Program-made: the position numbers and the translations under genes
From: Salipiger bermudensis
GTDB taxonomy: Bacteria; Pseudomonadota; Alphaproteobacteria; Rhodobacterales; Rhodobacteraceae
Assembly (NCBI RefSeq): GCF_019801965.1
Contig: NZ_JAHVIA010000005.1
Span: 248,001 to 312,000, forward strand
Length of the DNA stretch: 64,000 nucleotides
Direction: 5' to 3'
Part shown: positions 7,820 to 20,045 of the stretch, one piece after another
How the letters are laid out: each line of letters begins with the position of its first letter
Position numbering within the stretch: position 1 is the stretch's first letter
Notes under the pieces: model-generated
Told to the model about the DNA's origin: nothing
Seen by the model: the letters and a program-made list of their open reading frames with translations, nothing else
The model's database searches: none

Positions 7820-8242
7820 TCAGGGAGTGATGACGATCCGCGTCTGCTCGAAGCCGGTCTCCTGCACGGCGTCGAACAGCAGCCGGGCGTTGCCCGGTTC
7901 GAGCCGCACGCAGCCCGCGGAGGCCGGGGTACCCAGCCGGTCGACCGCCGTCGTGCCGTGGATCGCGTAATTGCCGCTGAAGAAGATCGACCACGGCATC
8001 GGCGCGTTGTCGTAGAGGGTCGAATAATGCATCCGCTCGAGCCGGTAGGGCGTGAAGGTGCCAAGCGGGGTGCACTTGCCGGCCCGCGCGGTGGAGACCG
8101 GCCAGACATGCGTGGCGAGGCCACCCTCGACCACCGTCATCTCCTGCTCGGAGAGATCGATCTCGATCCGCAATTCCTGCGCGCCCGCCGGGACGGCGAG
8201 CATCGCGAGCGCCAGAACGAGCAGCCCGGCCAAGGCGCGCAT
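7820..8242 (-). CDS. L,D-transpeptidase (YkuD domain)
   Basis: YkuD-type L,D-transpeptidases form 3-3 peptidoglycan cross-links or attach proteins to the wall. The 140-residue product has a signal peptide (MRALAGLLVLALAMLAVPAGAQ) and then the catalytic pattern HG...SAGCVR, with the nucleophilic cysteine in ASAGCVRL. I chose ATG 8242 because GGGGAGG lies six bases upstream on this strand. An in-frame ATG at 8257 overlaps the cytochrome stop as TGATG and is a fair alternative. It is translated after the cytochrome gene and probably belongs to the same transcript. It is short for the family but has the whole catalytic core. Confidence 0.85.
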   Translation of the reverse strand: MRALAGLLVLALAMLAVPAGAQELRIEIDLSEQEMTVVEGGLATHVWPVSTARAGKCTPLGTFTPYRLERMHYSTLYDNAPMPWSIFFSGNYAIHGTTAVDRLGTPASAGCVRLEPGNARLLFDAVQETGFEQTRIVITP

Positions 8243-8256
8243 CTCGGTCCTCCCCA

Positions 8257-8664
8257 TCAGTCCGGCTTCTGGATCTCGCGCAGGTAGGTCACCAGATCGA
8301 CCACCGGCCCCGAGGTCAGCACCGGCTGCCCGGCGGGCGTCTTGATCGGGACGTCGAACACGCCCTCGAAGAAATCGCCATAGACCGGCATCGGAGAGCC
8401 GTGACTGACCAGAGGATCGCGGCCGTCGATGCGCTTGACGATGCGCTCGAGCGGGAAGGCCCCGCCATTGGCCGCCGAGAGCTCGGTCAGGTTGACCGGC
8501 TTGATCAGCAGCACCCCGGCCATCGGACCGTCGCCCCGCCCTTCCAGCCCGTGGCAGGTGGCGCAATGGGTGTGATAGAGCCCGCGGCCGATATCGGCAT
8601 CCTGCGCCGCAGCCGCCGCGCCGAGCGCGGCAAGCGCCAGAGTTGTGATGATGATGCGTCGCAT
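8257..8664 (-). CDS. periplasmic c-type cytochrome
   Basis: The 135-residue protein has a signal peptide (ending in AAAAAQ) and one CXXCH haem-attachment motif, CATCH (C34, C37, H38). A later methionine in SHGSPMPVYGDFF is a candidate sixth ligand. It belongs to the monohaem class I cytochromes and should carry electrons in the periplasm. A good ribosome-binding site, GGGGAG, sits six bases before the ATG. The stop codon overlaps a possible start of the L,D-transpeptidase, suggesting co-transcription. Its redox partner is not visible in the window. Confidence 0.85.
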   Translation of the reverse strand: MRRIIITTLALAALGAAAAAQDADIGRGLYHTHCATCHGLEGRGDGPMAGVLLIKPVNLTELSAANGGAFPLERIVKRIDGRDPLVSHGSPMPVYGDFFEGVFDVPIKTPAGQPVLTSGPVVDLVTYLREIQKPD

Positions 8665-8748
8665 GAGACTCTCCCCTTGCTATGCCGGGCAGTCTCTCAC
8701 CCCGCAGGAGGCCACGCCTTGATACGGGTCAAGCCGCCCGGCCGATGC

Positions 8749-10245
8749 TCAGACCACCGCGAGGTGGCTGGCGTTGCGGCTGGCCTCCATCGGCCAGGGC
8801 GCGAGACGGCCGTCGAGCCGGAAGGTGGCGTGACCCGAGCCGCCATGCGCATGCACCGCGAGGTCGACGAGGCGGCCGTCGAAATTGGTGAAGCCCATCG
8901 ACAGCCCCTGCCCCTGCGCCTCGAAGCGGCTACGTAGGACCTGACAGGCGATCGCTTCGCCGAGCCGCAGATCGTTGAAATTCTCGGCCTGGTAGGCGCT
9001 GCCGGTCACCGAGCGCGCCAGCGCCACGTCGCCCGCAAGCCGGTCGGCCTCGGCACCGATATCGATGCCGCTGCCCGAGCTTCCGACCATGCGCAGCCGG
9101 GCGTGGCGGCGGCTGTCGAACACCGCCTTGAGCAGCGTCGAGAGCGCGCCGGCCACCACCACCTTGGCGACATGATCGGCCCGGTGTGGCGGCAGGTCGG
9201 CCCGCAGGGAGGGAAGGTGAAGATCGCTGCGGCCGCGAGCCGTCCGGCCCTGCGCCCGGTTCATCCGGTCGACCCAGTGCAGGAGCTGCGGCGTCTTGCC
9301 CGCGAGTTCCTCGGCGCAGGCGGCGATGTCGCCGTCCGATCCGCAGGGCTGGTCCTCGCTGGCCAACAGCGCCGTGATCCGCGCCGCGGTCACGCCGGGC
9401 CGGCTCAGCCGGTCGGCCCGGCCCTGCATCCGCATCGCCGCGGTGAAGGCCCGCTCGGCGCAATCGGCCATCATCGACAGCAGCGTCTGGGCCGAAACCC
9501 GCGCCGAGGGGGCGATGCCCTCGAGACCGGGATCGAGGGGTGCCTGCCGCGCCAGCAGGCGCAGCGCGGCGTTGAAATAGATCCGGCAAGGATGGCTGCC
9601 GTGCAGCCGCTCGGCCAGCGCGCGCGGGGTGATCAGCGCCTCGGGCTGCGGATCGCCCGGCGCCGGCGCGGCCAGCGATGCACCCGAGCAGCGCTCGATG
9701 TAATCGAGCCAGCGCGACATCGGGGCATCGGCCTCGGGCGCGCTGCAGGGCTCGGTCTCGGACGGGCTGCGGTGATCGGTGGCGTGCAGGGTCGACAGGC
9801 GGATCGTCGGACCGCGATGCGCCACGACGCCGCGAAACAGGCTGCGAAGGGTCAGCTGACCATCGCCATTCAACCGCAGGGTGCGGCGATGGTCAGCGTC
9901 CCCGCAGACGGCCCGGGAGCAAAGGACCGTCTCCACAGGCCCGGGAACGGGGAGGGCCTGATCGTTAAACCAGCTCAGCGAGCGCAGCTCGCAAAGCAAC
10001 TCGTGAAGCGTGAACCGGGTGCTCGCGTCGATCCAGATCTCGCAATGGGGATCCTGCATCAGCGCGAACGGCAGATCACGAACAAGCGCCATCGCGTAGA
10101 GCTCAGCCAGTTCCGCCGCGAGCTCGGCCGGCCCCATGCGCGGCGCCGTCGGGAGCTGGAGCTGCACATTGGCCGCCGCGCCGGGACGAAGGCCGCCATC
10201 GATGATGCGCAGGCCGTTCGGTTGATGTTCGTTCCCGTTGCTCAT
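8749..10245 (-). CDS. vanadium-haloperoxidase-fold protein lacking catalytic histidines
   Basis: This 498-residue protein has the layout of algal and cyanobacterial vanadium bromoperoxidases. Residues 38-66 read ELAELYAMALVRDLPF, the usual N-terminal helix. YFNAALRLLARQAPLDPG is a family hallmark, and EADRLAGDVALARSVTG (403 onward), LRLGEAIACQ (426-435) and a final TNFDGR complete the match. The active site has decayed. Where the family has PSGH this protein reads ADHVAKV (356-362), and the usual RxxxGVH/HW becomes ARSVTGSAY, so the acid-base and vanadate-binding histidines are gone. A pseudo-enzyme, scaffold or sensor role is inferred. There is no signal peptide. It is divergent from the S8 protease across a promoter bearing tandem 11-bp repeats. 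The homology comes from remembered motifs and needs a structure search. Confidence 0.65.
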   Translation of the reverse strand: MSNGNEHQPNGLRIIDGGLRPGAAANVQLQLPTAPRMGPAELAAELAELYAMALVRDLPFALMQDPHCEIWIDASTRFTLHELLCELRSLSWFNDQALPVPGPVETVLCSRAVCGDADHRRTLRLNGDGQLTLRSLFRGVVAHRGPTIRLSTLHATDHRSPSETEPCSAPEADAPMSRWLDYIERCSGASLAAPAPGDPQPEALITPRALAERLHGSHPCRIYFNAALRLLARQAPLDPGLEGIAPSARVSAQTLLSMMADCAERAFTAAMRMQGRADRLSRPGVTAARITALLASEDQPCGSDGDIAACAEELAGKTPQLLHWVDRMNRAQGRTARGRSDLHLPSLRADLPPHRADHVAKVVVAGALSTLLKAVFDSRRHARLRMVGSSGSGIDIGAEADRLAGDVALARSVTGSAYQAENFNDLRLGEAIACQVLRSRFEAQGQGLSMGFTNFDGRLVDLAVHAHGGSGHATFRLDGRLAPWPMEASRNASHLAVV

Positions 10246-10322
10246 GGCGGTGTTCCCTGTCTCTGACGGCCTTTCTGCGGGCCGTCTTGGATGACGTGAC
10301 GTAGGGACAATGTGACCGGCAC

Positions 10323-10377
10323 GCGTGAATGCAGCGTGATTGTTCCGCGATTTCCGCGTGAGTCTCGCGGGAATTCC
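10323..10377 (+). promoter_or_regulatory. five tandem 11-bp units, candidate SARP-type operator
   Basis: In the 275-bp divergent promoter, five consecutive 11-mers begin at 10323, 10334, 10345, 10356 and 10367. Their first eight bases are GCGTGAAT, GCGTGATT, CCGCGATT, GCGTGAGT and GCGGGAAT, each within two mismatches of GCGTGANT. A further GCGTGAAT stands at 10410. SARP regulators are known to bind direct heptamer repeats at 11- or 22-bp spacing. The array lies 144-198 bp before the protease start. The rest of this gap shows no gene. Confidence 0.6.
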
Positions 10378-10520
10378 CTAACGAACGCAAAGACGCACAT
10401 CCGATCAGCGCGTGAATATTGCGCAAAACCCCCGCCCCGCCCTGCCCGCTCGCTTGACGCATTGGCGGGGCTCGGCTTTGCTACCCTTATAGTTTTAAAG
10501 TCTTTCGCGAGGATCCGTTC

Positions 10521-12584
10521 ATGACGCTCACGTGGCACGCCCCCGAAATCTCCGCGTTTCACGATCCCTACGTGGATTTTTCCTGGATGATGCGGCAGCG
10601 CCGTGAGCCGCCGGTCGGCAGCGATGTCTTCGAGCCGCTCTTCGTGCGCCTGCGCGACGGCGACGGCGCAGACTCGGCGCTGCGGCAGCGCGAGCGGCTG
10701 AAGGCGCTGGTCGAGGATGCCGAGTCGCCGCTGCTGATGGAGCCCTTCGAGCTGAGAGGGCTGCGCCGACGCTGTCACACGCCCGACCCCGATGCCGGCC
10801 TGCCCGACGAATACCCGATCTACCGCGCCCTCGGCACGCCCGGCGATGCCTATGACGATCTCTTCGAGGTGCTCGACGACGGCACGCCGGTGGCGCTCGA
10901 CCCGAGCGCTGCCAGCTACGCCGCCGCGGCGGAGGAGCTTGTGGCGGCGAGCGATGCGGACGATACCGCGCGCAAGGGCCAGCCGATCGTCGCGGTGATC
11001 GACGACGGCATCGGCTTCCTCAACGCCCGGTTCTGCAAGGCGCGGCATGCCCGGGACGCCGGCCACCTGCGCACGCGCTTCGAGGCGATCTGGCTTCAAG
11101 CGCTGGAGCGGGCCGGCAAGCGCGATCACAGCGCCTGTCTCGGAGAGGTGCTCGAGCGCCGGCAGATCGATGCGCTGCTGGCGCGCGAAGGGCTGAACGA
11201 GACCGGCGAATACACCGCGATCAACGCCCGCCTGGCGCGGGCCGATGCGCGCCGCTCGACCGATTTCGGCACCAGCCACGGCACCCATGTGCTCGATCTT
11301 GCCGCCGGCTGCGAGCCCGACGACGCGGCCGATCCCGCCCGCGACTGGCCGCTGCTCGGCGTCCAGCTTCCGCCGCAGGCCATCGCCGACACCTCCGGCA
11401 CCAAGTTCGAGAGCTATCTCGTCGACGCGGTGCGCTGGGTGCTGCGCCGGGCCGAGGTCATGGATCCGCAGGCCCCGGTGATCATCAACCTGTCGCTGGG
11501 CATGCTGGCCGGGCCCAAGGACGGCACGCGCTTCGCCGAGTACCAGGTCGCCCGCGAGGCGCGGTTCTGGGAGCAGGTCAAGGGGCAGCCGGTGCGCGTG
11601 GTCTGGTCCTTCGGCAACGATTACCGCAAGCGGCTGGTGGCCGGCCTCTCCTACCCCGCCACCAAGGCCCGTAGCGCCACCGACAGCGGCATCGACTGGC
11701 GCGTCCAGCCCGGCGACCGCACCGAGAGCTATATCGAGCTGCGCGCCGAACCGGGACAGCCGCTTGCGGCGCTCGAGGTCGGACTGACGACCCCCGACGG
11801 GCTCGCCTCCGGTCTCTGCGCGATGCAGCCCGGCGAGATCCGCAACCTGACCAAGGGCGATCAGGTGGTGGCGCGCATCTACCACGTGCCAGAGCACCGG
11901 CTCGACCCGGAGACCGTGCAACCCGCCTTCTACCTGCTGGCCCTCGGCCCCACCGCCTCCTGCGATCTCGAGCCGCTGGTGCCGTCGGGCGCCTGGCGCC
12001 TCGACCTGCGCTACCACGGCAACGCGGCGCTGACGCTCGAGCTGCAGGTGCAGCGCGACGACAGCCTCGTGGGCTATCGCGCCGGCGCCCGGCAGAGCTA
12101 TTTCGAGAGCCCCGAGGGCTATGGCTGGAACGCGGAATTCTACGATTACACCCAGCTCACCCCGGACAGCGCGCTCAAGTATGCCGGTAGCCACAATGCG
12201 CTGGCGACGGCGCTGACTCGGCAGGTGTTCCATGTTGGCGCGGTGCGCCGCGACCTGCAGCAAGACCGGCTGCCGCCGTCGGATTACTGCGGCGAAGGCG
12301 CGTCGTGGTCGGTGCCCGGCCCGACGGTCTCGACCATCGCCGACCGCAGCTTCCTGCGCGGCGGGGTCAAGGGCTGCGGCACGCTGAGCGGCAGCACGCG
12401 GTTCCTCAATGGCACCAGCGCCGCCGCCGGTCGGCTGAGCCGCGCGCTGGCGCTCTCGGCGCCGCAGCTTGTCGCCAACGCGACGACGCCGCATCTGAGC
12501 GATTTCAATACCGCACGGGTCACCCTGACGCCGGTCGCCGAGGCCGACCGGGCGCGGCTCGGCAGCCACGTGGTAACCACCTGA
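10521..12584 (+). CDS. subtilisin-family (S8) serine protease
   Basis: The 687-residue protein contains a complete subtilase triad: Asp161 in VAVIDDG, His253 in SHGTHV and Ser633 in NGTSAAAG. It also has the substrate-binding strand INLSLG and an oxyanion-hole Asn in SFGND. About 90 residues separate Asp from His and 380 separate His from Ser, much wider than in subtilisin, so a large domain (roughly 400-600, beta-rich by composition) is inserted before the serine. The usual NGTSMAAP is altered to NGTSAAAG. There is no obvious signal peptide, so it may act in the cytoplasm or leave by an unconventional route. GAGG seven bases before the ATG supports the start. A weak GC hairpin (12615-12632) follows the gene. 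Confidence 0.85.
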   Translation: MTLTWHAPEISAFHDPYVDFSWMMRQRREPPVGSDVFEPLFVRLRDGDGADSALRQRERLKALVEDAESPLLMEPFELRGLRRRCHTPDPDAGLPDEYPIYRALGTPGDAYDDLFEVLDDGTPVALDPSAASYAAAAEELVAASDADDTARKGQPIVAVIDDGIGFLNARFCKARHARDAGHLRTRFEAIWLQALERAGKRDHSACLGEVLERRQIDALLAREGLNETGEYTAINARLARADARRSTDFGTSHGTHVLDLAAGCEPDDAADPARDWPLLGVQLPPQAIADTSGTKFESYLVDAVRWVLRRAEVMDPQAPVIINLSLGMLAGPKDGTRFAEYQVAREARFWEQVKGQPVRVVWSFGNDYRKRLVAGLSYPATKARSATDSGIDWRVQPGDRTESYIELRAEPGQPLAALEVGLTTPDGLASGLCAMQPGEIRNLTKGDQVVARIYHVPEHRLDPETVQPAFYLLALGPTASCDLEPLVPSGAWRLDLRYHGNAALTLELQVQRDDSLVGYRAGARQSYFESPEGYGWNAEFYDYTQLTPDSALKYAGSHNALATALTRQVFHVGAVRRDLQQDRLPPSDYCGEGASWSVPGPTVSTIADRSFLRGGVKGCGTLSGSTRFLNGTSAAAGRLSRALALSAPQLVANATTPHLSDFNTARVTLTPVAEADRARLGSHVVTT

Positions 12585-12683
12585 GCCGGCGGCCCGCGGC
12601 GCAAAGAAATGGGCCGGGGCCATCGGGCCCCGACCACTCACCAAACACAGGCCGCAACCGCGGCCCCACTGGTTAAACACGCG

Positions 12684-13769
12684 TCATCCTCCGATCAGGG
12701 CCTTCTGCCACATCTTGCGCAGCCAATCGGGCACCACCGACGGATCGATCTTGATCGTCGTCTCGCGGATCACGCCCGAGTCCTTGCCGATCTCCTCCGA
12801 CATCACCGCAAGGTTGAAATCGCCCGCGTAGGCGCTGCCGTCGAAGCTGCGGGCGGTGGTCTCCTCGCGCCCGTCGAGCAGGTTGACCAACGCTTCGGCC
12901 ATGCTCACCCCGAGCACCGCGCCGGCCATGCTGTCGGTCGGGTAATGCACCCCCGCGACGGTCCGGTTGATGGCGATGCGCTCGGCCTGCCGGTAGAACG
13001 GCGTCTGCTTGGCGATCAGGTCACGCGGCACGAGCGGCTCGGACTCGTTGTAGCACAGCCGGCTGAGCAGCGTGGCGGCGGCGAAGCTCTCGGTGGCGTG
13101 GCCGCTCGGCCAGGCCCCGTGGCCCGGTGTCTGGATGATCGGCTGCACCTGATAGGCCAGCGTGATCGGGCGCGGCACGTCGAAGCCGAGCTTCACCGGC
13201 ATCTCGATATGGGTGCAGAGCCGAAACACCGCCTGGGTCAGCGCCAGCTGCCACTTGGTGGCGGCGGACGACATGTAGCTGACACTGGCGAAAAACGACT
13301 GGATGTTGCTGGTCTCGACACGGATCTCTGACAGCCGGTCGTAGCGCAGATCCGCCGCGGCGCGCAGGTAGCCGAGCTGCTTTTTCTCGAGCACATCGAT
13401 GGTCGGGCGCGTCAGCGACACCAGTGTCTCGCCCTGGAAACTCACCTCGCCGGTCGTGTTGGCCTTTTCGCTGCTTCCGAACTGCACGCCGTAGAGGCTC
13501 TGGATCGCCTGATCCATCACCGCCCGTCGCGGCGCCGTGCCAAGCGCCTTGATCGCATCCCAGGTATCGCGGCCCTCGACCCGGGAAACGCGGCTCGGCA
13601 GCCCATTCCAATACCCGACGGTGCCGTCGCGCGCGCTTCCCAGGGCCGCACTCAGGGCCGACGAGCCCGCACCCCCTTCGTGGCCCTCATGCCCTTCGTG
13701 TCCCTCGTGGCCTTCGTGACCCTCATGTCCTTCGTGGCCTTCATGGCCCTCGTGCCCATAAACCGGCAT
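12684..13769 (-). CDS. vanadium haloperoxidase / PAP2-superfamily enzyme with N-terminal His-Glu-Gly tract
   Basis: The 361-residue protein carries the full signature shared by vanadium haloperoxidases and PAP2 acid phosphatases: K193-x6-R200-P, then PSGH (221-224), then R269-x5-H275-x3-D279 in NRTVAGVHYPTD. It could oxidise halides with peroxide and a vanadate cofactor, or hydrolyse phosphate esters; sequence alone does not decide. Residues 6-32 are nine perfect His-Glu-Gly triplets, absent from normal family members. There is no classical signal peptide. It converges on the S8 protease (99 bp between stops) and diverges from the SARP-like regulator. Two GCGTGAAT-type repeats lie upstream. 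ATG 13769 is the only start that includes the tract; a later start would lose it. Confidence 0.78.
   Translation of the reverse strand: MPVYGHEGHEGHEGHEGHEGHEGHEGHEGHEGGAGSSALSAALGSARDGTVGYWNGLPSRVSRVEGRDTWDAIKALGTAPRRAVMDQAIQSLYGVQFGSSEKANTTGEVSFQGETLVSLTRPTIDVLEKKQLGYLRAAADLRYDRLSEIRVETSNIQSFFASVSYMSSAATKWQLALTQAVFRLCTHIEMPVKLGFDVPRPITLAYQVQPIIQTPGHGAWPSGHATESFAAATLLSRLCYNESEPLVPRDLIAKQTPFYRQAERIAINRTVAGVHYPTDSMAGAVLGVSMAEALVNLLDGREETTARSFDGSAYAGDFNLAVMSEEIGKDSGVIRETTIKIDPSVVPDWLRKMWQKALIGG
13674..13754 (-). repeat. 81-bp coding repeat encoding (His-Glu-Gly)x9
   Basis: Nine in-frame copies of CA(C/T)-GA(A/G)-GGN follow the codons for MPVYG in the haloperoxidase gene. The copies use mixed synonymous codons at all three positions and are not identical 9-mers. 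That argues for selection on the peptide over very recent slippage. His and Glu in regular spacing make a likely metal-binding segment. Confidence 0.9.
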
Positions 13770-13880
13770 TCCCAGTGTCCCCCCGAGAAAAACAAATCAG
13801 AATTCGCGCTCAAAACGATTTTTCTCAGGGTGACAGAAATACCGGCCATGCGTCAAAGCCTTGTGCCTGTGGCGCGAGCG

Positions 13881-13899
13881 ATTCACGGACAATTCACGC
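13881..13899 (-). promoter_or_regulatory. two GCGTGAAT-type repeats 11 bp apart upstream of the haloperoxidase
   Basis: On the minus strand GCGTGAAT (13899-13892) is followed after 11 bp by CCGTGAAT (13888-13881). The octamer, the spacing and the orientation relative to the downstream gene match the five-unit array before the S8 protease. The pair lies about 112-130 bp before the haloperoxidase start and just upstream of the divergent regulator, so it could control either gene. Confidence 0.55.
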
Positions 13900-13967
13900 C
13901 CGTTGCCGGATTAGTGAGGCGGTGCTACGCTCACGGGCAATCTTTGTTTCGATGGCTGGATGGCCCG

Positions 13968-15569
13968 ATGCGCGACACTGCAACCCAGATACGGATTTCG
14001 GTGCTCGGCCCTCTTCGCGTGGAGGCCGCGGATGGCAGCTGCCTGACCCCGAAAGGCGCCAAGAACCAGGCACTTCTGGCCCTGCTGGCGCTGTCGCCCG
14101 AGATGTCGCGCACGCGCCGCTGGCTCGAAGACAAGCTGTGGAGCCAGTTCGGCCCGGAGCAGGCCAGCGCCAATCTCCGGCAGGCGCTCAGCAAGCTGCG
14201 CAGCGCTCTCGGGCCGCATGCGGGCATCCTCGTCGCCGACCGCAGCACCGTCGCGCTCGCCCAAACCGGCATCGCGGTCGACCTGCGCGATGAAGGGCTG
14301 CCCTTCGACCAGCGCAGCGAGCTGCTTGAGGGGCTCGACGCGCGCGATCCCGAGTTCGAGGAATGGCTGCGCATGGAACGCGCCGACCTGCAGGCGCGGC
14401 TGTCTCAGGCCGAGCCGAAGCTGGCCAAGGGGGTGCTGATCCATTGCCGCTCGGCGGCGCCGGCCGAGGATGGCGCCAACATCATGGCCGACATCCTCGC
14501 CAACCAGATCGGCGAGAACATCGCCGAGCAGATCCGCGCCTGGCGGCAGGCCAACGATCCCGACCACCCGGCCGAACTGCCGATGAGCGACATCTCCCTC
14601 ACCTGCGACATCCTCAAGACCAGCGACGGCCATACCCTCTTCGTCAAGGGGCTGCACGTGCCGAGCGGACGCATCCTCTATTCCAAGATGCAGGCGGTCA
14701 GCCAGCTCGAGGCGATCCTGCGCAGCGACGAGATCGTCGCCAAGCTGGTCTTCGAGGCGGCGGACTGCATCATCGGGAAGCTGCCGCAGGTGCTCGACAC
14801 CAACCGCCCCGAGAGCCGCGCCACGGCGCTGTCGCGTCTCAGCATGTATCGCATGTTCAGCTTCGAGCGCGACGCGCTGCGCGAGGCGCATTCGCTGCTC
14901 AAGCAGGCCTATGAGCTCGACCCAAACGGCATCTACCTCGCCTGGAGCAGCATGGTGCGGATGATCCAGCTCCTCGAACTCCTCGAAGAAGACCGCGATG
15001 CGCTGCGCGAGGAGGCCATCGCGCTGAACTATCGCGCGATGGAGGCTTCGGAGGACAACGCGCTGGTCCACGCGCTGATCTCGAAGGTCCGCGGCACCGC
15101 GCAGCGCGACGCGGCCGGCGCCTTCGAGCTGGCCGACACCGCGGTCAACCGCAACCCGGCCTCGGCCTTCGCGTGGAAATCCCTGGCCGAGGCCAACATG
15201 CTGAAGGGCGACGTTGCCTCGGCCTTCGACGCCTCGGCCCGGGCCCGCGCCATCGCGCGCAGCTCGCCGTTCAAACAATGGTGGGACATGGGGCACTGCA
15301 TCATCGCCATCGCCTGCAATCGCCCGCAGGAAGCCATCGAGGCCGGCGAAGCGGCGGCCCGCGCCGCGCCCCTGTCGCGCCCGGCGCATCGGCACCTGTT
15401 GGCGCTCTACGCGCTCGATGGCCAGCTCGACAAGGCGCAGGCCACGGCAGTGAAGCTCGGCAAGATCGAGCCGGGCTTCTCTATCGATCAGATCATCAAC
15501 GATGAGAACTACCCGGTGCGCACCCTGCGCAACAAGGGTCTGCTCGAACCGATCCGCGCCCTGCTCTGA
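13968..15569 (+). CDS. transcriptional regulator with SARP/BTAD-type winged helix and helical-repeat C-terminus
   Basis: The 533-residue protein begins with an OmpR/SARP-like winged-helix domain (about residues 8-95). RISVLGPLRVEA, PKGAKNQALLALLALSP and ASANLRQALSKLRSALG match the pattern of SARP DNA-binding domains. The long remainder is alpha-helical with TPR-like pairs (for example AFAWKSLAEANMLKGDVASA and LSRPAHRHLLALYALDG), a usual site for protein or ligand sensing. I chose ATG 13968 because homology starts there. Upstream in-frame ATGs (13848, 13680) lie in promoter DNA and in the antisense of the His-Glu-Gly tract. The Shine-Dalgarno is weak. It is the obvious candidate to bind the 11-bp repeats in this island. 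Confidence 0.8.
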   Translation: MRDTATQIRISVLGPLRVEAADGSCLTPKGAKNQALLALLALSPEMSRTRRWLEDKLWSQFGPEQASANLRQALSKLRSALGPHAGILVADRSTVALAQTGIAVDLRDEGLPFDQRSELLEGLDARDPEFEEWLRMERADLQARLSQAEPKLAKGVLIHCRSAAPAEDGANIMADILANQIGENIAEQIRAWRQANDPDHPAELPMSDISLTCDILKTSDGHTLFVKGLHVPSGRILYSKMQAVSQLEAILRSDEIVAKLVFEAADCIIGKLPQVLDTNRPESRATALSRLSMYRMFSFERDALREAHSLLKQAYELDPNGIYLAWSSMVRMIQLLELLEEDRDALREEAIALNYRAMEASEDNALVHALISKVRGTAQRDAAGAFELADTAVNRNPASAFAWKSLAEANMLKGDVASAFDASARARAIARSSPFKQWWDMGHCIIAIACNRPQEAIEAGEAAARAAPLSRPAHRHLLALYALDGQLDKAQATAVKLGKIEPGFSIDQIINDENYPVRTLRNKGLLEPIRALL

Positions 15570-15581
15570 GGGCGCGTGGGC

Positions 15582-16070
15582 TCAGTTGGCGCGCTTGTCG
15601 TGATCGAGCGCACCGACGGTCAGCACCGGCGAGGCGTCGATGTCGCGGGCATCCAGCATGGCGGCGACGCGCTCGAGCGATGACAAGAGCTGCGCCTGCT
15701 CCCAATCCTCGAGCCGCTCGAACTCGCGCACGAAGCGCTGTTGCAGGGCGTCGGGCGCGCGGTCGAGCGTCGCCTCACCCTTCTCGCTCAGCACGACGTT
15801 GATCTGACGCCGGTCCATACTGGACTGGGCACGCTTGACCATGCCGTCCTTCACCAGCTTGTCGACCAGCCCGGTGATGGTGGCCTGGCTCACGCCCATC
15901 TGGGTCGCCAGCGCCTTGGGTGTGGTGGTGCCGCCCTTCATCTGCACGATCTGCATCACGCGCAGCTTCGCCGGCGTGACCCCGGCGGCGCTCGCCAGGT
16001 CGCGTTCGTAAAGCTCGGTGGCTCTCAGAATTCGCCGCAGGGCAATCAAGCTGTCATCCGTTCGATCCAT
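15582..16070 (-). CDS. ectR: MarR-family regulator of ectoine genes
   Basis: The 162-residue protein has a MarR winged helix: ATQMGVSQATITGLVDKL is the recognition-helix region, followed by the wing SMDRRQINVVLSEKG. A MarR protein divergent from ectA matches EctR, a known repressor of ectABC-ask operons in halotolerant proteobacteria. I chose ATG 16070; a GTG nine bases further upstream (16079) is also in frame. It converges with the SARP-like regulator, with 12 bp between the stops. The operator is probably in the divergent promoter, where I see an inverted repeat. The salt-responsive role is inferred from position and family. Confidence 0.85.
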   Translation of the reverse strand: MDRTDDSLIALRRILRATELYERDLASAAGVTPAKLRVMQIVQMKGGTTTPKALATQMGVSQATITGLVDKLVKDGMVKRAQSSMDRRQINVVLSEKGEATLDRAPDALQQRFVREFERLEDWEQAQLLSSLERVAAMLDARDIDASPVLTVGALDHDKRAN

Positions 16071-16147
16071 CGGACCCACGCCTCGCAGATTTGGGGGCAG
16101 AATTGAGGAATGGCCCTTTGTTGCATGAAACAGGAGGATACTTCAAT

Positions 16148-16286
16148 CGGCTAAGCATCTCCCGCGAAATCTTCAGGCTCCTAAGGATAATGCTTCGCGA
16201 TCAGCTTTCAACACCCATGCGCAAAGCACTGTATTTTATTGGTTTTACATAATATAGGAAGTTTTCCCCGAAAAAATGCTTAGGCG
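16148..16286 (+). promoter_or_regulatory. ectR-ectA divergent promoter with inverted CGGCTAAGCAT / ATGCTTAGGCG arms
   Basis: CGGCTAAGCAT (16148-16158) recurs inverted as ATGCTTAGGCG (16276-16286), a 10 of 11 match. The arms bracket an AT-rich patch (GTATTTTATTGGTTTTACAT at 16231-16250, then AATATAGG) that stands out in this GC-rich genome and is the likely promoter core. The arms are candidate EctR half-operators. No gene is present between 16071 and 16349. Confidence 0.45.
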
Positions 16287-16349
16287 GTTGAAACTTTCCG
16301 ACGAGTCTCTTAGTTTACCTTTCAAAGCAACCGAGAGGGACCTGACCCG

Positions 16350-16886
16350 ATGCCGAAAGACAGCTTCACGTCCAAGCAGGACAACCTCCTGCTCCGCAAG
16401 CCCGAGGCCACCGATGGCGCCGCCATCTGGGAGCTCGTGCGCGCGTGCAAGCCGCTCGACGAGAACTCGATGTACTGCAACCTCGTTCAAGCGGAGCACT
16501 TCCGTGACACCTGCGTTGTGGCCGAGCTCGACGGCGATGTCGTCGGCTGGATCTCGGGTCACATGATCCCCAACAAGGACGCCTATTTCGTCTGGCAGGT
16601 CGCCGTGAGCCCGAAGGCGCGCGGTCTGGGCCTTGGCCGCAAGATGCTGACACACCTCGTCGAGCGCGAGGAATGCAGCAATGCGGTCGCCCTCAAGACC
16701 ACCATCACCGAAGACAATGACGCGTCCTGGGGCCTGTTCCGCAGCTTCGCCCGCTCCATCGGCGGCGAGCTGATCGACGAGCCCCACTACGAAAAAGACG
16801 TTCACTTCGACGGTCGTCACGACACCGAGCACATGGTGACGATCACCCTGCCGGAGATGGATACCGAGCTGGCTGCCGCCGCCTGA
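16350..16886 (+). CDS. ectA: L-2,4-diaminobutyrate acetyltransferase
   Basis: EctA acetylates L-2,4-diaminobutyrate from acetyl-CoA, the second step in making the compatible solute ectoine. The 178-residue product is a single GNAT domain. VWQVAVSPKARGLGLGRKML contains the acetyl-CoA pyrophosphate loop (R/Q-x-x-G-x-G/A), and SMYCNLVQAEHFRDTC is typical of EctA near the N-terminus. It is the first gene of ectA-ectB-ectC-ask, separated from ectB by 52 bp. I chose ATG 16350 because the upstream frame has no family similarity. Confidence 0.95.
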   Translation: MPKDSFTSKQDNLLLRKPEATDGAAIWELVRACKPLDENSMYCNLVQAEHFRDTCVVAELDGDVVGWISGHMIPNKDAYFVWQVAVSPKARGLGLGRKMLTHLVEREECSNAVALKTTITEDNDASWGLFRSFARSIGGELIDEPHYEKDVHFDGRHDTEHMVTITLPEMDTELAAAA

Positions 16887-16938
16887 TCCGTCCGACCGTC
16901 GATCTTCCCTGATTTCAGAAGTCCCGAAAGGACATCTC

Positions 16939-18213
16939 ATGACACGCGATATCTACACGCGCCGCGAAAGCGAAGCGCGCTCCTACTGCCGTAGTTTTCC
17001 GACGAGCTTCGTGAAGGCCAGCGGCTCGATCCTCACCGACGCCGAAGGGCGCGAGTATATCGACTTTCTCGCCGGCTGCTCGTCGCTCAACTACGGACAC
17101 AACGATCCCGACATGAAGGCCGCGCTGATCGAGCACATCTCGAACGACGGCGTGACCCACGGTCTCGACATGCACACCGACCAGAAGGAAGCCTTCCTGA
17201 CCGCCTTCGAGGAGATCATCCTCGCCCCACGCGGTATGGACCACAAGGTGATGATGGTCGGCCCGACCGGCACCAACGCCGTCGAGGCGGCGATGAAGCT
17301 CGCGCGCAAGACCACCGGCCGCCACAACATCGTGGCCTTCACCAACGGCTTCCACGGCATGACCATGGGCGCCCTCGCCGCGACCGGCAATTCCGGCAAG
17401 CGCGACGGTGGATCGATGCCGCTGCAGGGCGTCACCCACATGCCCTATGACGGCGCCTTCGGCGACGGCGTGGACACGCTGAAACAGATCGAGTGGATGC
17501 TCGACAACCCGTCCTCGGGCCTCGACGCCCCCGCCGCCTTCCTCGTGGAGCCGGTTCAGGGCGAAGGCGGTCTGAATGCTGCCTCCAAGGAATGGATGCA
17601 GGGCATCGCCAAGCTCGCCAAGAAGCACGGCGCGCTGCTCATTGCCGACGACATCCAGGCCGGCATCGGCCGCACCGGCACGTTCTTCTCCTTTGAAGAC
17701 TTCGGCATCGAGCCGGATCTCATCCCGCTGGCGAAATCGCTTTCGGGCATGGGCCTGCCCTTCGCCGCCCTGCTGGTGAAGCCGGAGCTCGACGTCTGGA
17801 AGCCTGCCGAGCACAACGGCACCTTCCGCGGCAACACCCACGCCTTCGTCACCGCCCGCGTGGCGCTGGAGAAGTTTTGGAAGGACGACGCCTTCCAGCA
17901 GGAGATCCAGAAGAAGGCGCGGATCGTCGAGATCGGCCTGACCTCGATCGCCGACATGATCGATGGCGCCCGCCTCAAGGGCCGCGGCCTGATGCGCGGC
18001 GTCGACGTGGGCAACGGTGATCTCGCCGGCGACATCTGTGCCGAAGCCTTCAAACGCGGCCTCATCATCGAGACCTCGGGCGCGCATGACGAGGTGGTCA
18101 AGGTGCTCGCACCGCTGACCACCACGGAAGAGCAGTTCGCGAAAGGGTTCGAGATCCTGCGCGACGTCACCCGTGCCGCCCTCACCGAAACAAGCAAGAT
18201 TGCAGCGGAGTAA
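16939..18213 (+). CDS. ectB: diaminobutyrate-2-oxoglutarate transaminase
   Basis: EctB is the PLP-dependent class III aminotransferase that converts aspartate 4-semialdehyde to L-2,4-diaminobutyrate using glutamate, the first committed step of ectoine synthesis. The 424-residue length is normal. Visible landmarks are GPTGTNAVEAAMKLARK, FTNGFHGMTMGALAATG, the DDIQAGIGRTG segment with the PLP-contacting Asp, and LAKSLSGMGLP, which contains the lysine expected to bind PLP. AAAGGA six bases before the ATG supports the start. It lies within the ect operon, five bases before ectC. Confidence 0.95.
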   Translation: MTRDIYTRRESEARSYCRSFPTSFVKASGSILTDAEGREYIDFLAGCSSLNYGHNDPDMKAALIEHISNDGVTHGLDMHTDQKEAFLTAFEEIILAPRGMDHKVMMVGPTGTNAVEAAMKLARKTTGRHNIVAFTNGFHGMTMGALAATGNSGKRDGGSMPLQGVTHMPYDGAFGDGVDTLKQIEWMLDNPSSGLDAPAAFLVEPVQGEGGLNAASKEWMQGIAKLAKKHGALLIADDIQAGIGRTGTFFSFEDFGIEPDLIPLAKSLSGMGLPFAALLVKPELDVWKPAEHNGTFRGNTHAFVTARVALEKFWKDDAFQQEIQKKARIVEIGLTSIADMIDGARLKGRGLMRGVDVGNGDLAGDICAEAFKRGLIIETSGAHDEVVKVLAPLTTTEEQFAKGFEILRDVTRAALTETSKIAAE

Positions 18214-18218
18214 CCGAC

Positions 18219-18611
18219 ATGATCGTTCGTGACTTCAACGACCTGAAAAACACCGACAAGCACGTGGCCGACGCCAAGTGGACCTCCACCCGGATGCTGC
18301 TGGCGCAGGACGGCATGGGCTTCTCGTTCCACATCACTATTCTCGAAGCCGGCTCGGAGCACACGTTCCACTACAAGCACCACTTCGAGAGCGTCTATTG
18401 CATGAAGGGCAAGGGCTCGATCACCGACATCGCCACCGGCGAGACGCACGAGATTAAGCCCGGTGTGATGTATGCGCTGAACCTGCACGACAAGCATATC
18501 CTGCGCGCCGAAGAAGAGCTTCACATGGCCTGCTGCTTCAACCCGCCGGTCACCGGCAACGAAGTGCACCGTGAAGACGGCTCCTACGCGCCGGCCGAGG
18601 AGGTGGCGTAA
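18219..18611 (+). CDS. ectC: L-ectoine synthase
   Basis: EctC cyclises N-gamma-acetyl-diaminobutyrate to ectoine. The 130-residue protein is a small cupin: the stretches MGFSFHITILEAGSEHTFHY and HFESVYCMKGKGSITD give the metal-binding beta-barrel, and PGVMYALNLHDKHILRAEE is typical of the C-terminal half. The start lies five bases after the ectB stop, and the stop precedes ask by three bases, consistent with one transcript. No ectD (ectoine hydroxylase) is present, so the window encodes ectoine but not hydroxyectoine synthesis. Confidence 0.95.
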   Translation: MIVRDFNDLKNTDKHVADAKWTSTRMLLAQDGMGFSFHITILEAGSEHTFHYKHHFESVYCMKGKGSITDIATGETHEIKPGVMYALNLHDKHILRAEEELHMACCFNPPVTGNEVHREDGSYAPAEEVA

Positions 18612-18614
18612 GCC

Positions 18615-20045
18615 ATGGCCCATCATACGGTTGAAAAGATTGGCGGGACATCCATGTCCCGCCTCGACGAACTGCGCGACACGCTGCTGATCGGCGGTCG
18701 CGAAGGTGCCGAGCTTTATGGCCGTATCTTCGTGGTCTCCGCCTTCGGCGGCATCACCAACTTGCTGCTCGAGCACAAGAAGACCGGCGAGCCGGGCGTC
18801 TACGGGCAGTTCGCCGAGAGCGACAACACCCACGGCTGGCACGACGCGCTGAACCGCGTTGCCAACGCGATGATCGAGGCGCACAGCTCGATCCTCGAGC
18901 ACCCGGCCGACATCCAGCAGGCGACCGATTTCGTGCGCACCCGCATCGACGGCGCGCGCAACTGCCTGATCGATCTCGCCCGCGTCTGCTCCTACGGCCA
19001 CTTCCGCCTGTCCGAACACATGCTGCAGACCCGCGAGCTGCTTTCCGGTCTCGGCGAGGCGCACTCGGCCTATGTCACGGTGCTGATGCTGCAGCGCGCC
19101 GGCGTCGATGCCCGGCTGGTGGATCTCAGCGGCTGGCGCGGCGATGGCGACGTCGATCTCGAGCAACGCATCCTCGGCGCCCTAGATGGCGTCGACCCAA
19201 TGACCGAGATGCCGATCGTCACCGGCTATGCCCAGTGCAAGGAAGGCCTGATGCGCGAGTTCGACCGCGGCTATTCCGAGGTCACCTTCTCGCATCTCGC
19301 CGCCCTCACGGGGGCGCGCGAGGCGATCATCCACAAGGAGTTTCACCTCTCCTCGGCGGATCCCAACCTCGTCGGCCAAGACGCCGTGCGCAAGCTCGGC
19401 CGCACCAATTACGACGTGGCCGATCAGCTGTCGAACATGGGCATGGAGGCGATCCATCCGAAAGCCGCCAAGACCCTGCGCCAGGCCGATGTGCCGTTGC
19501 GCGTGACCAACGCCTTCGAGCCGAAGGATCCTGGCACGCTGATCGACGATCAACCGGCGGAGAGCTCGGCGGTAGAGATCGTCACCGGCCTCGACATCAT
19601 CGCGCTGGAGCTGTTCGAACAGGACATGGTCGGCGTGAAGGGCTACGACGCATCGATCCTCGACGTGCTGACGCGGCACGACGTGCGCATCGTGTCGAAG
19701 GTGTCGAACGCCAACACCATCACCCACTACGTGGATGCCTCGCTGAAATCGATGCGCCGCGTGGAGAAGGATCTCGAGAAGCTCTACCCTTCCGCAAGGA
19801 TCTCGTCGCGCACCCTGTCGATGGCCTCGGTCATCGGCCGCGATCTCAGCGGGCTGTCCTGCCTGCAACGCGGCCTCGTGGCGATCGCCGAGGAGGGGCT
19901 CGAGGCCATCGGCGCGAGCCAGGGCCCGCGCAACGTGGACGTGCAGTTCATCATGGAGCGCGACATCCTGAAGCCGGTGATCAAGGCCCTGCACAAGACC
20001 TTCATTGAGGCGCAGGACAAGCCGGAAATGCGCAAAGCCGCCTGA
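18615..20045 (+). CDS. ask: aspartate kinase of the ectoine operon
   Basis: This 476-residue aspartokinase phosphorylates aspartate to feed aspartate semialdehyde to EctB. It starts with the kinase motif VEKIGGTSMSR, contains SEVTFSHLAALTGAREAIIHKEFHLSSAD, and ends with two ACT domains (about 320-470). Such ect-linked kinases (Ask_Ect) form a distinct subfamily thought to escape normal lysine/threonine feedback; that property is known for relatives, not shown here. It follows ectC by three bases and is followed by a strong rho-independent terminator. Confidence 0.93.
   Translation: MAHHTVEKIGGTSMSRLDELRDTLLIGGREGAELYGRIFVVSAFGGITNLLLEHKKTGEPGVYGQFAESDNTHGWHDALNRVANAMIEAHSSILEHPADIQQATDFVRTRIDGARNCLIDLARVCSYGHFRLSEHMLQTRELLSGLGEAHSAYVTVLMLQRAGVDARLVDLSGWRGDGDVDLEQRILGALDGVDPMTEMPIVTGYAQCKEGLMREFDRGYSEVTFSHLAALTGAREAIIHKEFHLSSADPNLVGQDAVRKLGRTNYDVADQLSNMGMEAIHPKAAKTLRQADVPLRVTNAFEPKDPGTLIDDQPAESSAVEIVTGLDIIALELFEQDMVGVKGYDASILDVLTRHDVRIVSKVSNANTITHYVDASLKSMRRVEKDLEKLYPSARISSRTLSMASVIGRDLSGLSCLQRGLVAIAEEGLEAIGASQGPRNVDVQFIMERDILKPVIKALHKTFIEAQDKPEMRKAA

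Follow-up and report, generated by a model that had tools for sequence, protein, structure and literature searches.

Four neighbouring genes occupy positions 8749-15569 of the window, by which we mean the whole stretch of 64,000 nucleotides analysed here (Salipiger bermudensis, assembly GCF_019801965.1, contig NZ_JAHVIA010000005.1, positions 248,001-312,000); coordinates given without a locus name refer to it. We letter the genes A (a bromoperoxidase homologue), B (an S8 protease), C (a PAP2-type enzyme) and D (a regulator combining a winged helix-turn-helix, or wHTH, with tetratricopeptide repeats, or TPRs), and their positions are collected in Table 1. An earlier reading of this DNA, referred to below as the original prediction, had named the same four open reading frames (ORFs), all of which are present where it placed them; it had also described two convergent and two divergent pairs, whereas A/B and C/D are divergent and the sole convergent pair is B/C. 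We find that B, C and D recur together in other genomes and almost certainly form one functional unit, and that C begins with a tandem repeat of a short peptide. In the window this repeat is an exact (GHE)x9.3, in which eight of nine unit DNA sequences are distinct and every difference between them is synonymous; it is the most unusual feature here and was overlooked in the original prediction.

Table 1. Genes and features of the cassette, in window coordinates
Feature	Position	Strand	Basis
A, degenerate vanadium-bromoperoxidase homologue, 498 residues, accessory	8749-10245	-	1qhb 2.4e-20; catalytic residues lost
B, S8 subtilase, 687 residues, CspB-like fold	10521-12584	+	Peptidase_S8 5e-9; 4i0w E 4.6e-22
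C, soluble PAP2-type enzyme, 361 residues, N-terminal exact repeat, centre of the cassette	12684-13769	-	PAP2 5.7e-13
Repeat tract of C, residues 5-32, (GHE)x9.3 straight after MPVY	13674-13757	-	
D, winged-helix-like N-terminus and TPR-type C-terminus, 533 residues	13968-15569	+	AfsR N-terminal match 4.3e-9
Divergent C/D intergenic region, presumed shared control region	13770-13967		C/D divergence is the commonest layout

Recurrence of the B-C-D trio

Each of the four proteins was used in a family-level search of 149 genomes, which gave matches to C in 59 (a figure that takes in generic PAP2 genes), to A in 15, to B in 32 and to D in 74. A match to C was present in 31 of the 32 genomes bearing B, against 59 of 149 overall, and all 32 also had a match to D, though the D family is common. 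The exception without C (genome G119) has one open frame stringing together pieces of D, C and B, with no part for the catalytic Asp (L154:8313-10538). This genome is listed as 78% complete and 5% contaminated, and we set the chain aside as evidence, taking it for a remnant or an assembly artefact; the idea that it was a D-B fusion was dropped once the chain had been read out.

Neighbourhoods were read in 60 fetched regions and in 80 named loci, the latter being the best 80 of 590 C relatives from a scan with one peptide pattern, which biases this sample towards near relatives. Gene calling in the fetched loci was mechanical, with six-frame ORFs picked by homology. All counts of C require a score above 90 bits to the C model, which leaves out three ORFs (the bromoperoxidases of loci L135 and L215 and a PAP2 gene of L150 that has no tract); identical copies were counted once, and near-identical copies stay separate. 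Five fetched loci (L146, L148, L150, L153 and L154) have a match to D but no C above 90 bits. When the first 60 loci and the window were clustered, three large families emerged, namely the regulator (51 loci), the PAP2 enzyme (50) and the S8 protease (44), while the remaining neighbours mostly differ between loci. Adjacency was counted for C genes with at least 3.5 kb of flank on each side, of which 103 were distinct: D lies within 3.5 kb of C in all 103 and B in 97. Among the six without B in this range, L145, L147 and L155 have an adjacent divergent S8 protease by Pfam, the B match of L228 is 5.5 kb from C, and L142 shows none in its 20-kb locus. In the sixth, L135, a PAP2 domain and an S8 protease are naturally fused in a single ORF of 926 residues (L135:5488-8265). 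The commonest order, D<C>B<A> as in the window, holds the full set of four families in 29 of 103 loci, and 33 of the 103 have A near C. The earlier claim that the genes act together is supported for B, C and D by their recurrence and by the one PAP2-S8 fusion, and does not extend to A as a core member.

Beyond this sample, a class-wide search covered 385 genomes, of which 24 were matched, with flanks of about 1.4 kb, and a phylum-wide search with short flanks covered 398 genomes, in 19 of which C was found (the genome of the window included), two of them outside the class (L283 and L289). Twelve loci read from the phylum-wide search all have the tract, with B in 12 of 12 and D in 11 of 12 within the short flank. 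Plasmids of Phaeobacter carry the trio as well, and their records annotate it as a wHTH protein, a PAP2 phosphatase and an S8 peptidase, without linking the three. At L276 and L279, the annotation of Phaeobacter inhibens M647 breaks the regulator and the S8 gene into pieces, and that of the Parasedimentitalea locus lists short hypothetical proteins; such fragmented annotations suggest that the cassette can be lost.

Several single loci are worth recording. The L135 fusion carries repeats of the dipeptide TH and lies about 2 kb from an intact bromoperoxidase homologue, and its leader resembles a twin-arginine signal. At L228:10216-11838 a caspase-like Peptidase_C14 protein with peptidoglycan-binding domains adjoins C, which may be chance. 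Another cassette of S8, PAP2 and regulator genes, with the tract unit GQM, lies in the genome of the window at a distance of about 70 kb past the first (L096:6924-11586, or G000:C5 at approximately 328.9-333.6 kb).

The N-terminal repeat of C

In an alignment of 25 C proteins, each has an N-terminal tandem of a short peptide, imperfect in L134. A perfect tract of at least 12 residues is present in 118 of 120 distinct C ORFs, with at least five copies in 114; L134 lacks one, as does L194, an ORF truncated at the end of its contig. The tracts have periods of 3 (93 tracts), 4 (16), 2 (5), 5 (3) and 6 (1), and they contain 71 different units, rich in G, A, Q, S, H and N and with Gly in 51 of the 71, at a median of 8.7 copies (range 3.25-19). 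The tract starts at a median of four residues past the nearest upstream Met; in ten C ORFs there is no Met upstream, and translation would begin at another codon. Among 761 comparison ORFs from the first 60 loci and the window, a repeat was found in two, one of which is a C cut by a contig end (L153), and among 11 PAP2 genes from the class-wide search without D in their flanks of about 1.4 kb none has a tract. C genes that stand beside D in other alphaproteobacterial families do have it, the weakest being L263 with three copies, and GGA is the unit of the tract in a C copy on a Paraburkholderia plasmid. Close relatives differ in copy number: in Phaeobacter the unit is constant (NSF), with six copies in ten, seven in two and five in one of 13 plasmid copies out of 21 Phaeobacter records, and in two Cohaesibacter genomes whose C cores are 98% identical (L200 and L201) GGH occurs x8.3 and x17.3, about a doubling. 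We considered a collagen-like protein and rejected it, the match to Pfam Collagen (2.8e-4) being below the cut-off and 20 of the 71 units being without Gly.

The DNA beneath these tracts is much less uniform than the peptide. Between neighbouring copies 2978 codon pairs were compared and 835 were identical, with 125, 72 and 2114 differences at codon positions 1, 2 and 3, respectively; since the tracts are perfect by definition, the differences at positions 1 and 2 come from synonymous codons of Ser, Arg and Leu. With Met, Trp and rare residues set aside, 2139 of 2906 codon pairs differ; codon usage outside the tract in each gene would predict 1519, and shuffling the codons within tracts gives 1820 (standard deviation 23). 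Taking one tract per unit, 1401 of 1896 pairs differ, against 1182 in the shuffles (standard deviation 19, maximum 1231 in 300). When tracts were extended to imperfect copies, which lessens the bias from picking perfect ones, 16 of 3505 residues deviated from the unit. Codons that are unlike beyond chance, together with a peptide that is nearly unchanged, imply that it is the peptide that is kept exact and not the DNA, and judged from these codon comparisons the exactness of the repeat is under strong selection. A different large protein beside one cassette (L110:13248-15905) carries DPV x17.7 with mostly block-identical DNA, and is given here as one example for illustration only.

The unit itself is inherited yet often replaced. 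Pairs of C proteins share their unit in 23 of 23 cases at a core identity of at least 80%, in 10 of 14 at 70-80%, in 20 of 87 at 60-70%, in 17 of 351 at 50-60% and in 14 of 3662 at 30-40%, the pairs in these counts not being independent of one another. Because distant pairs almost never share a unit, the distinct units found in genomes with two copies of C are uninformative. Mapped onto a tree of 69 C cores, the 36 units require 37 changes, where shuffling gives an average of 58.5, which is the pattern expected of inheritance with frequent replacement. Of nine pairs that differ in unit at 65-80% core identity, six are one step apart, compared with 148 of 1410 same-period pairs of units overall, although these are small numbers. 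The simplest guess for a change of unit across a whole tract with scrambled codons is that the tract re-expands and then drifts synonymously. Once C identity is equalised, loci that share a unit have slightly more similar D proteins (+0.045); the effect changes direction in the bin of lowest identity, and descent confounds it.

The four proteins

C matches Pfam PAP2 at 49.2 bits against a cut-off of 27.2 (E 5.7e-13). As originally predicted, it carries the full signature of KX6RP (residues 193-201), PSGH (221-224) and RX5HX3D (269-279), and in 63 relatives K193, P201, S222, G223, H224, R269, H275 and D279 are invariant and R200 and P221 nearly so. These three motifs also define PAP2 phosphatases, and C is only a candidate for the intact vanadium haloperoxidase of the original prediction, as both fold and profile searches rank an acid phosphatase first. 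The best solved relative in the profile search is the acid phosphatase 7f17 (3.4e-17, against 1.7e-8 for 1qi9), and in a Foldseek search acid phosphatases take ranks 1-15 and the haloperoxidase 4usz is 25th; 7f17 superposes on C with a template modelling (TM) score of 0.67 by target length. The AlphaFold model of C has a mean predicted local distance difference test score (pLDDT) of 92.3, falling to about 50 over residues 1-30. Compared with the soluble PAP2 acid phosphatases (7f17, and the class A acid phosphatases), C is alike in core sequence, fold and motifs and differs in its extra N-terminal region with the tract and in an invariant His, seven positions ahead of the one in the motif, at which 7f17 carries a Gly. 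C shares this His with the vanadium bromoperoxidases 1qi9 and 7qwi; it is much shorter than the enzymes of this group (Corallina, Acaryochloris, Ascophyllum) and otherwise resembles them weakly. The His is no proof of a haloperoxidase, because LpxE (6ebu) also aligns a His at this place, with a one-residue insertion. C is therefore best described, from its motifs and predicted model, as a soluble enzyme of the PAP2/haloperoxidase type, which may be either a phosphatase or a haloperoxidase.

B matches Pfam Peptidase_S8 at 36.3 bits against a cut-off of 21.8 (E 5e-9). The S8 triad that had been assigned to it is present as D161, H253 and S633 and, like N366, is invariant in 58 relatives. In a fold search its predicted model (mean pLDDT 93.2) is closest to CspB of Clostridium perfringens (4i0w, E 4.6e-22; TM scores of 0.71 and 0.50 by target and query length, respectively), with CspA and CspC of Clostridioides difficile next in rank. 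B thus resembles the clostridial Csp proteases in overall fold, and its model has an N-terminal alpha/beta region (36-103) and a long beta-rich stretch (373-608) between N366 and S633, which may correspond to a retained prodomain and a jellyroll insertion. CspB is described as a protease that keeps its prodomain and has a jellyroll insertion, and whose activity is required for efficient cleavage of SleC, and pro-SleC as a zymogen that cleavage frees of its N-terminal propeptide (PMC3567191). The presumed substrate of B, which is C, likewise has an N-terminal extension, but it is a PAP2 enzyme with repeats and not a cortex hydrolase. The hosts of the cassette have no known sporulation context. 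The N-terminal hydrophobicity of B is low, with no evident signal peptide, and none of A-D has a strongly hydrophobic N-terminus, so that no ordinary export signal is apparent in any of the four.

For D, which was originally labelled a SARP-like regulator, membership of the true SARPs is not supported. The OmpR-type winged helix (Trans_reg_C) scores 18.5 bits, under the cut-off of 26.2, and reaches E <= 0.01 in 8 of 28 relatives; BTAD is absent among the 19 Pfam families that match any of the 28 members at E <= 0.01. The N-terminus of D does resemble that of AfsR (4.3e-9, 34.9 bits against a cut-off of 1430), and a TPR model matches 15 of the 28 members. D thus shares an AfsR-like N-terminus with SARP/AfsR-type and other wHTH-TPR proteins, and its relatives have C-terminal TPRs, but it falls far under the AfsR cut-off and is without the BTAD match. 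The listed ORF starts at GTG 13680, but for most relatives the alignment begins no earlier than about residue 95-105, which makes ATG 13968 the probable start. A nucleotide-cyclase domain accompanies the TPRs in the D-like proteins of L142 and L145.

At E <= 1, A matches nothing in Pfam, NCBIfam or PADLOC. The proposal that it is a dead protein of the haloperoxidase fold is borne out: a phmmer search of PDB finds the vanadium haloperoxidase 1qhb (2.4e-20), the A family profile matches 5lpc (1.9e-119), and in alignment with intact relatives the catalytic Lys is replaced by Q, the first His by K and the second His by A, both Arg being kept, although the letter in the Lys column depends on the alignment. 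Vanadium bromoperoxidases are thus the parent family of A, which differs from them by the loss of the catalytic Lys and His. The nearest relative of the window C, among the best 80 of 590, is from S. bermudensis, at 83%, and against S. bermudensis AmN7-7 the ratio of nonsynonymous to synonymous substitution rates (dN/dS) is 0.24 for A, 0.24 for B, 0.23 for C and 0.10 for D. The ratio for A indicates that it is under purifying selection and not decaying. In S. bermudensis HTCC2601 (L156) there is no match to A, and B is alignable only from residue 97. All five catalytic residues are present in 7 of 42 distinct A-family ORFs and not in 35, the latter including poorly aligned rows, the contig-cut L167, and L146, which has both His and T for K. 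What emerges is a maintained family of non-catalytic relatives of the bromoperoxidases. Intact bromoperoxidase homologues lie within 3.5 kb of C in five loci (L140, L131, L135, L205 and L215), that of L140 matching 5lpc at 3.8e-100; the four intact homologues scanned (L140, L131, L150 and L135) have no Pfam match at E <= 0.01. A defence system was also considered and rejected, as none of A-D matched PADLOC at E <= 1.

Possible workings of the cassette

We propose that D controls C, and probably B too, with the C/D intergenic region acting as their shared control region, and that C as synthesised would carry an N-terminal leader that is disordered and consists of exact oligopeptide repeats. The CspB-like B would recognise or trim this leader and thereby switch, release or relocate C, much as CspB frees pro-SleC of its propeptide. 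A, added in one lineage and non-catalytic, is likely to be a binding or regulatory subunit. Given how steadily the trio recurs, the single fusion, active sites that are intact and the resemblance of B to CspB, the simplest account is that B acts proteolytically on C, with D as the regulator, and a leader of exact repeats is an obvious part for B, or for the TPRs of D, to hold. The original prediction had a protease processing a haloperoxidase-type partner under a dedicated regulator; this is still the best reading, with C as either a phosphatase or a haloperoxidase, and is strengthened by the fold of B. We nevertheless put the chance that B acts on the leader at a little under even.

Several observations weigh against action of B on the leader. 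Cleavage of C by B is a proposal from models and analogy, and B and CspB are 16% identical. B and C are often convergent and not co-transcribed. An unchanging protease should favour an unchanging site, whereas there are 71 units, and the unit does not co-vary with B (regression effect 0.007). In L142 the tract is kept, and no B match or S8 protease was detected in the 20-kb locus. In L150 a PAP2 gene that scores 33.3 bits with Pfam and 27.6 bits with the C model lies directly behind D and beside an intact bromoperoxidase (8056-13214), with no tract and with no S8 protease in the 13.7 kb read, which counts against a strict rule that D goes with the tract.

The most serious competitor, possible though in our view somewhat doubtful, is that the tract is a multivalent module for binding or assembly, a series of docking sites or a silk-, polyglycine- or collagen-like fibre by which C is gathered into clusters or anchored on a surface, a mineral or a partner, with B maturing something else. 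The composition of the units, the low confidence with which the tract is modelled beside a firm core, the weak collagen match and the fact that any unit seems to serve if it is repeated exactly would all suit such a module; no single helix geometry, however, fits periods of 2, 3, 4, 5 and 6, and the near-constant S8 neighbour is left unexplained. A bolder alternative is that B might cut the tract into lineage-specific peptides which the TPRs of D sense, so that bacteria answer only their own repeat. In yeast the subtilase Kex2 cuts tandem pheromone repeats, and here too a subtilase, together with a wHTH-TPR regulator, adjoins a repeat-bearing gene with 71 lineage-specific units; D is the sole partner present in 103 of 103 loci and is slightly more alike between loci with the same unit. 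We think this improbable, given the lack of an evident export signal in A-D, the shortness of units of 2-6 residues, a PAP2 enzyme that would be superfluous, and the smallness of the effect on D with its reversal and its confounding by descent. If true, exact units with scrambled codons would represent a new class of tandem-encoded bacterial signal.

Two simpler explanations are rejected. A neutral origin of the tract in DNA slippage, tolerated by the protein, would agree with the whole-unit copy changes in close relatives (NSF x5, x6 and x7 on Phaeobacter plasmids; GGH x8.3 and x17.3) and with the distant D-linked PAP2 gene of L150, which does without a tract. It is made very improbable by the presence of the tract in 118 of 120 C ORFs and in 0 of 11 PAP2 genes without D in the flank, and by synonymous differences that exceed the shuffles with almost no amino-acid change, whereas the unrelated DPV repeat of L110 shows the mostly block-identical DNA expected of slippage. 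That the four genes are unrelated neighbours is hardly credible. Their mixed orientations, and the absence of A from most loci, are what one would expect of chance neighbours, but for B, C and D the idea is contradicted by adjacency in 97 and 103 of 103 loci while other neighbours mostly differ, by the natural PAP2-S8 fusion, and by recurrence on Phaeobacter plasmids and in L283 and L289 outside the class.

Whether or not B proves to act on the leader of C, a neighbourhood that looked like chance becomes a widespread and apparently unnamed system, one that automatic annotation as a PAP2 phosphatase, an S8 peptidase and a wHTH protein hides by leaving the genes unlinked. The literature matches listed, from a search outside which most subscription papers lie, include no description of the gene set or of the tract; as far as this search goes, the parts belong to known families and the combination and the repeat have not been described. 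A likeness for the repeat is found in the circumsporozoite protein of Plasmodium, a conserved protein with species-specific tandem units that are exact at the peptide level, which differs in being a surface antigen of a eukaryotic parasite with no linked cassette of protease and regulator. The puzzle is what reads a repeat while being, over long times, indifferent to which repeat it is, and the presence of the cassette on plasmids of Phaeobacter inhibens, a species in laboratory culture and under study there, makes the question open to experiment.

Other ORFs border the four genes on either side. To the left, at 7820-8664, an ORF for a YkuD L,D-transpeptidase and one for a cytochrome c stand on one strand, and the ORFs as called overlap. 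To the right, the region 15582-20045 begins with a MarR-type gene (Pfam), and further genes follow that resemble ectoine synthesis genes and an aspartate kinase.

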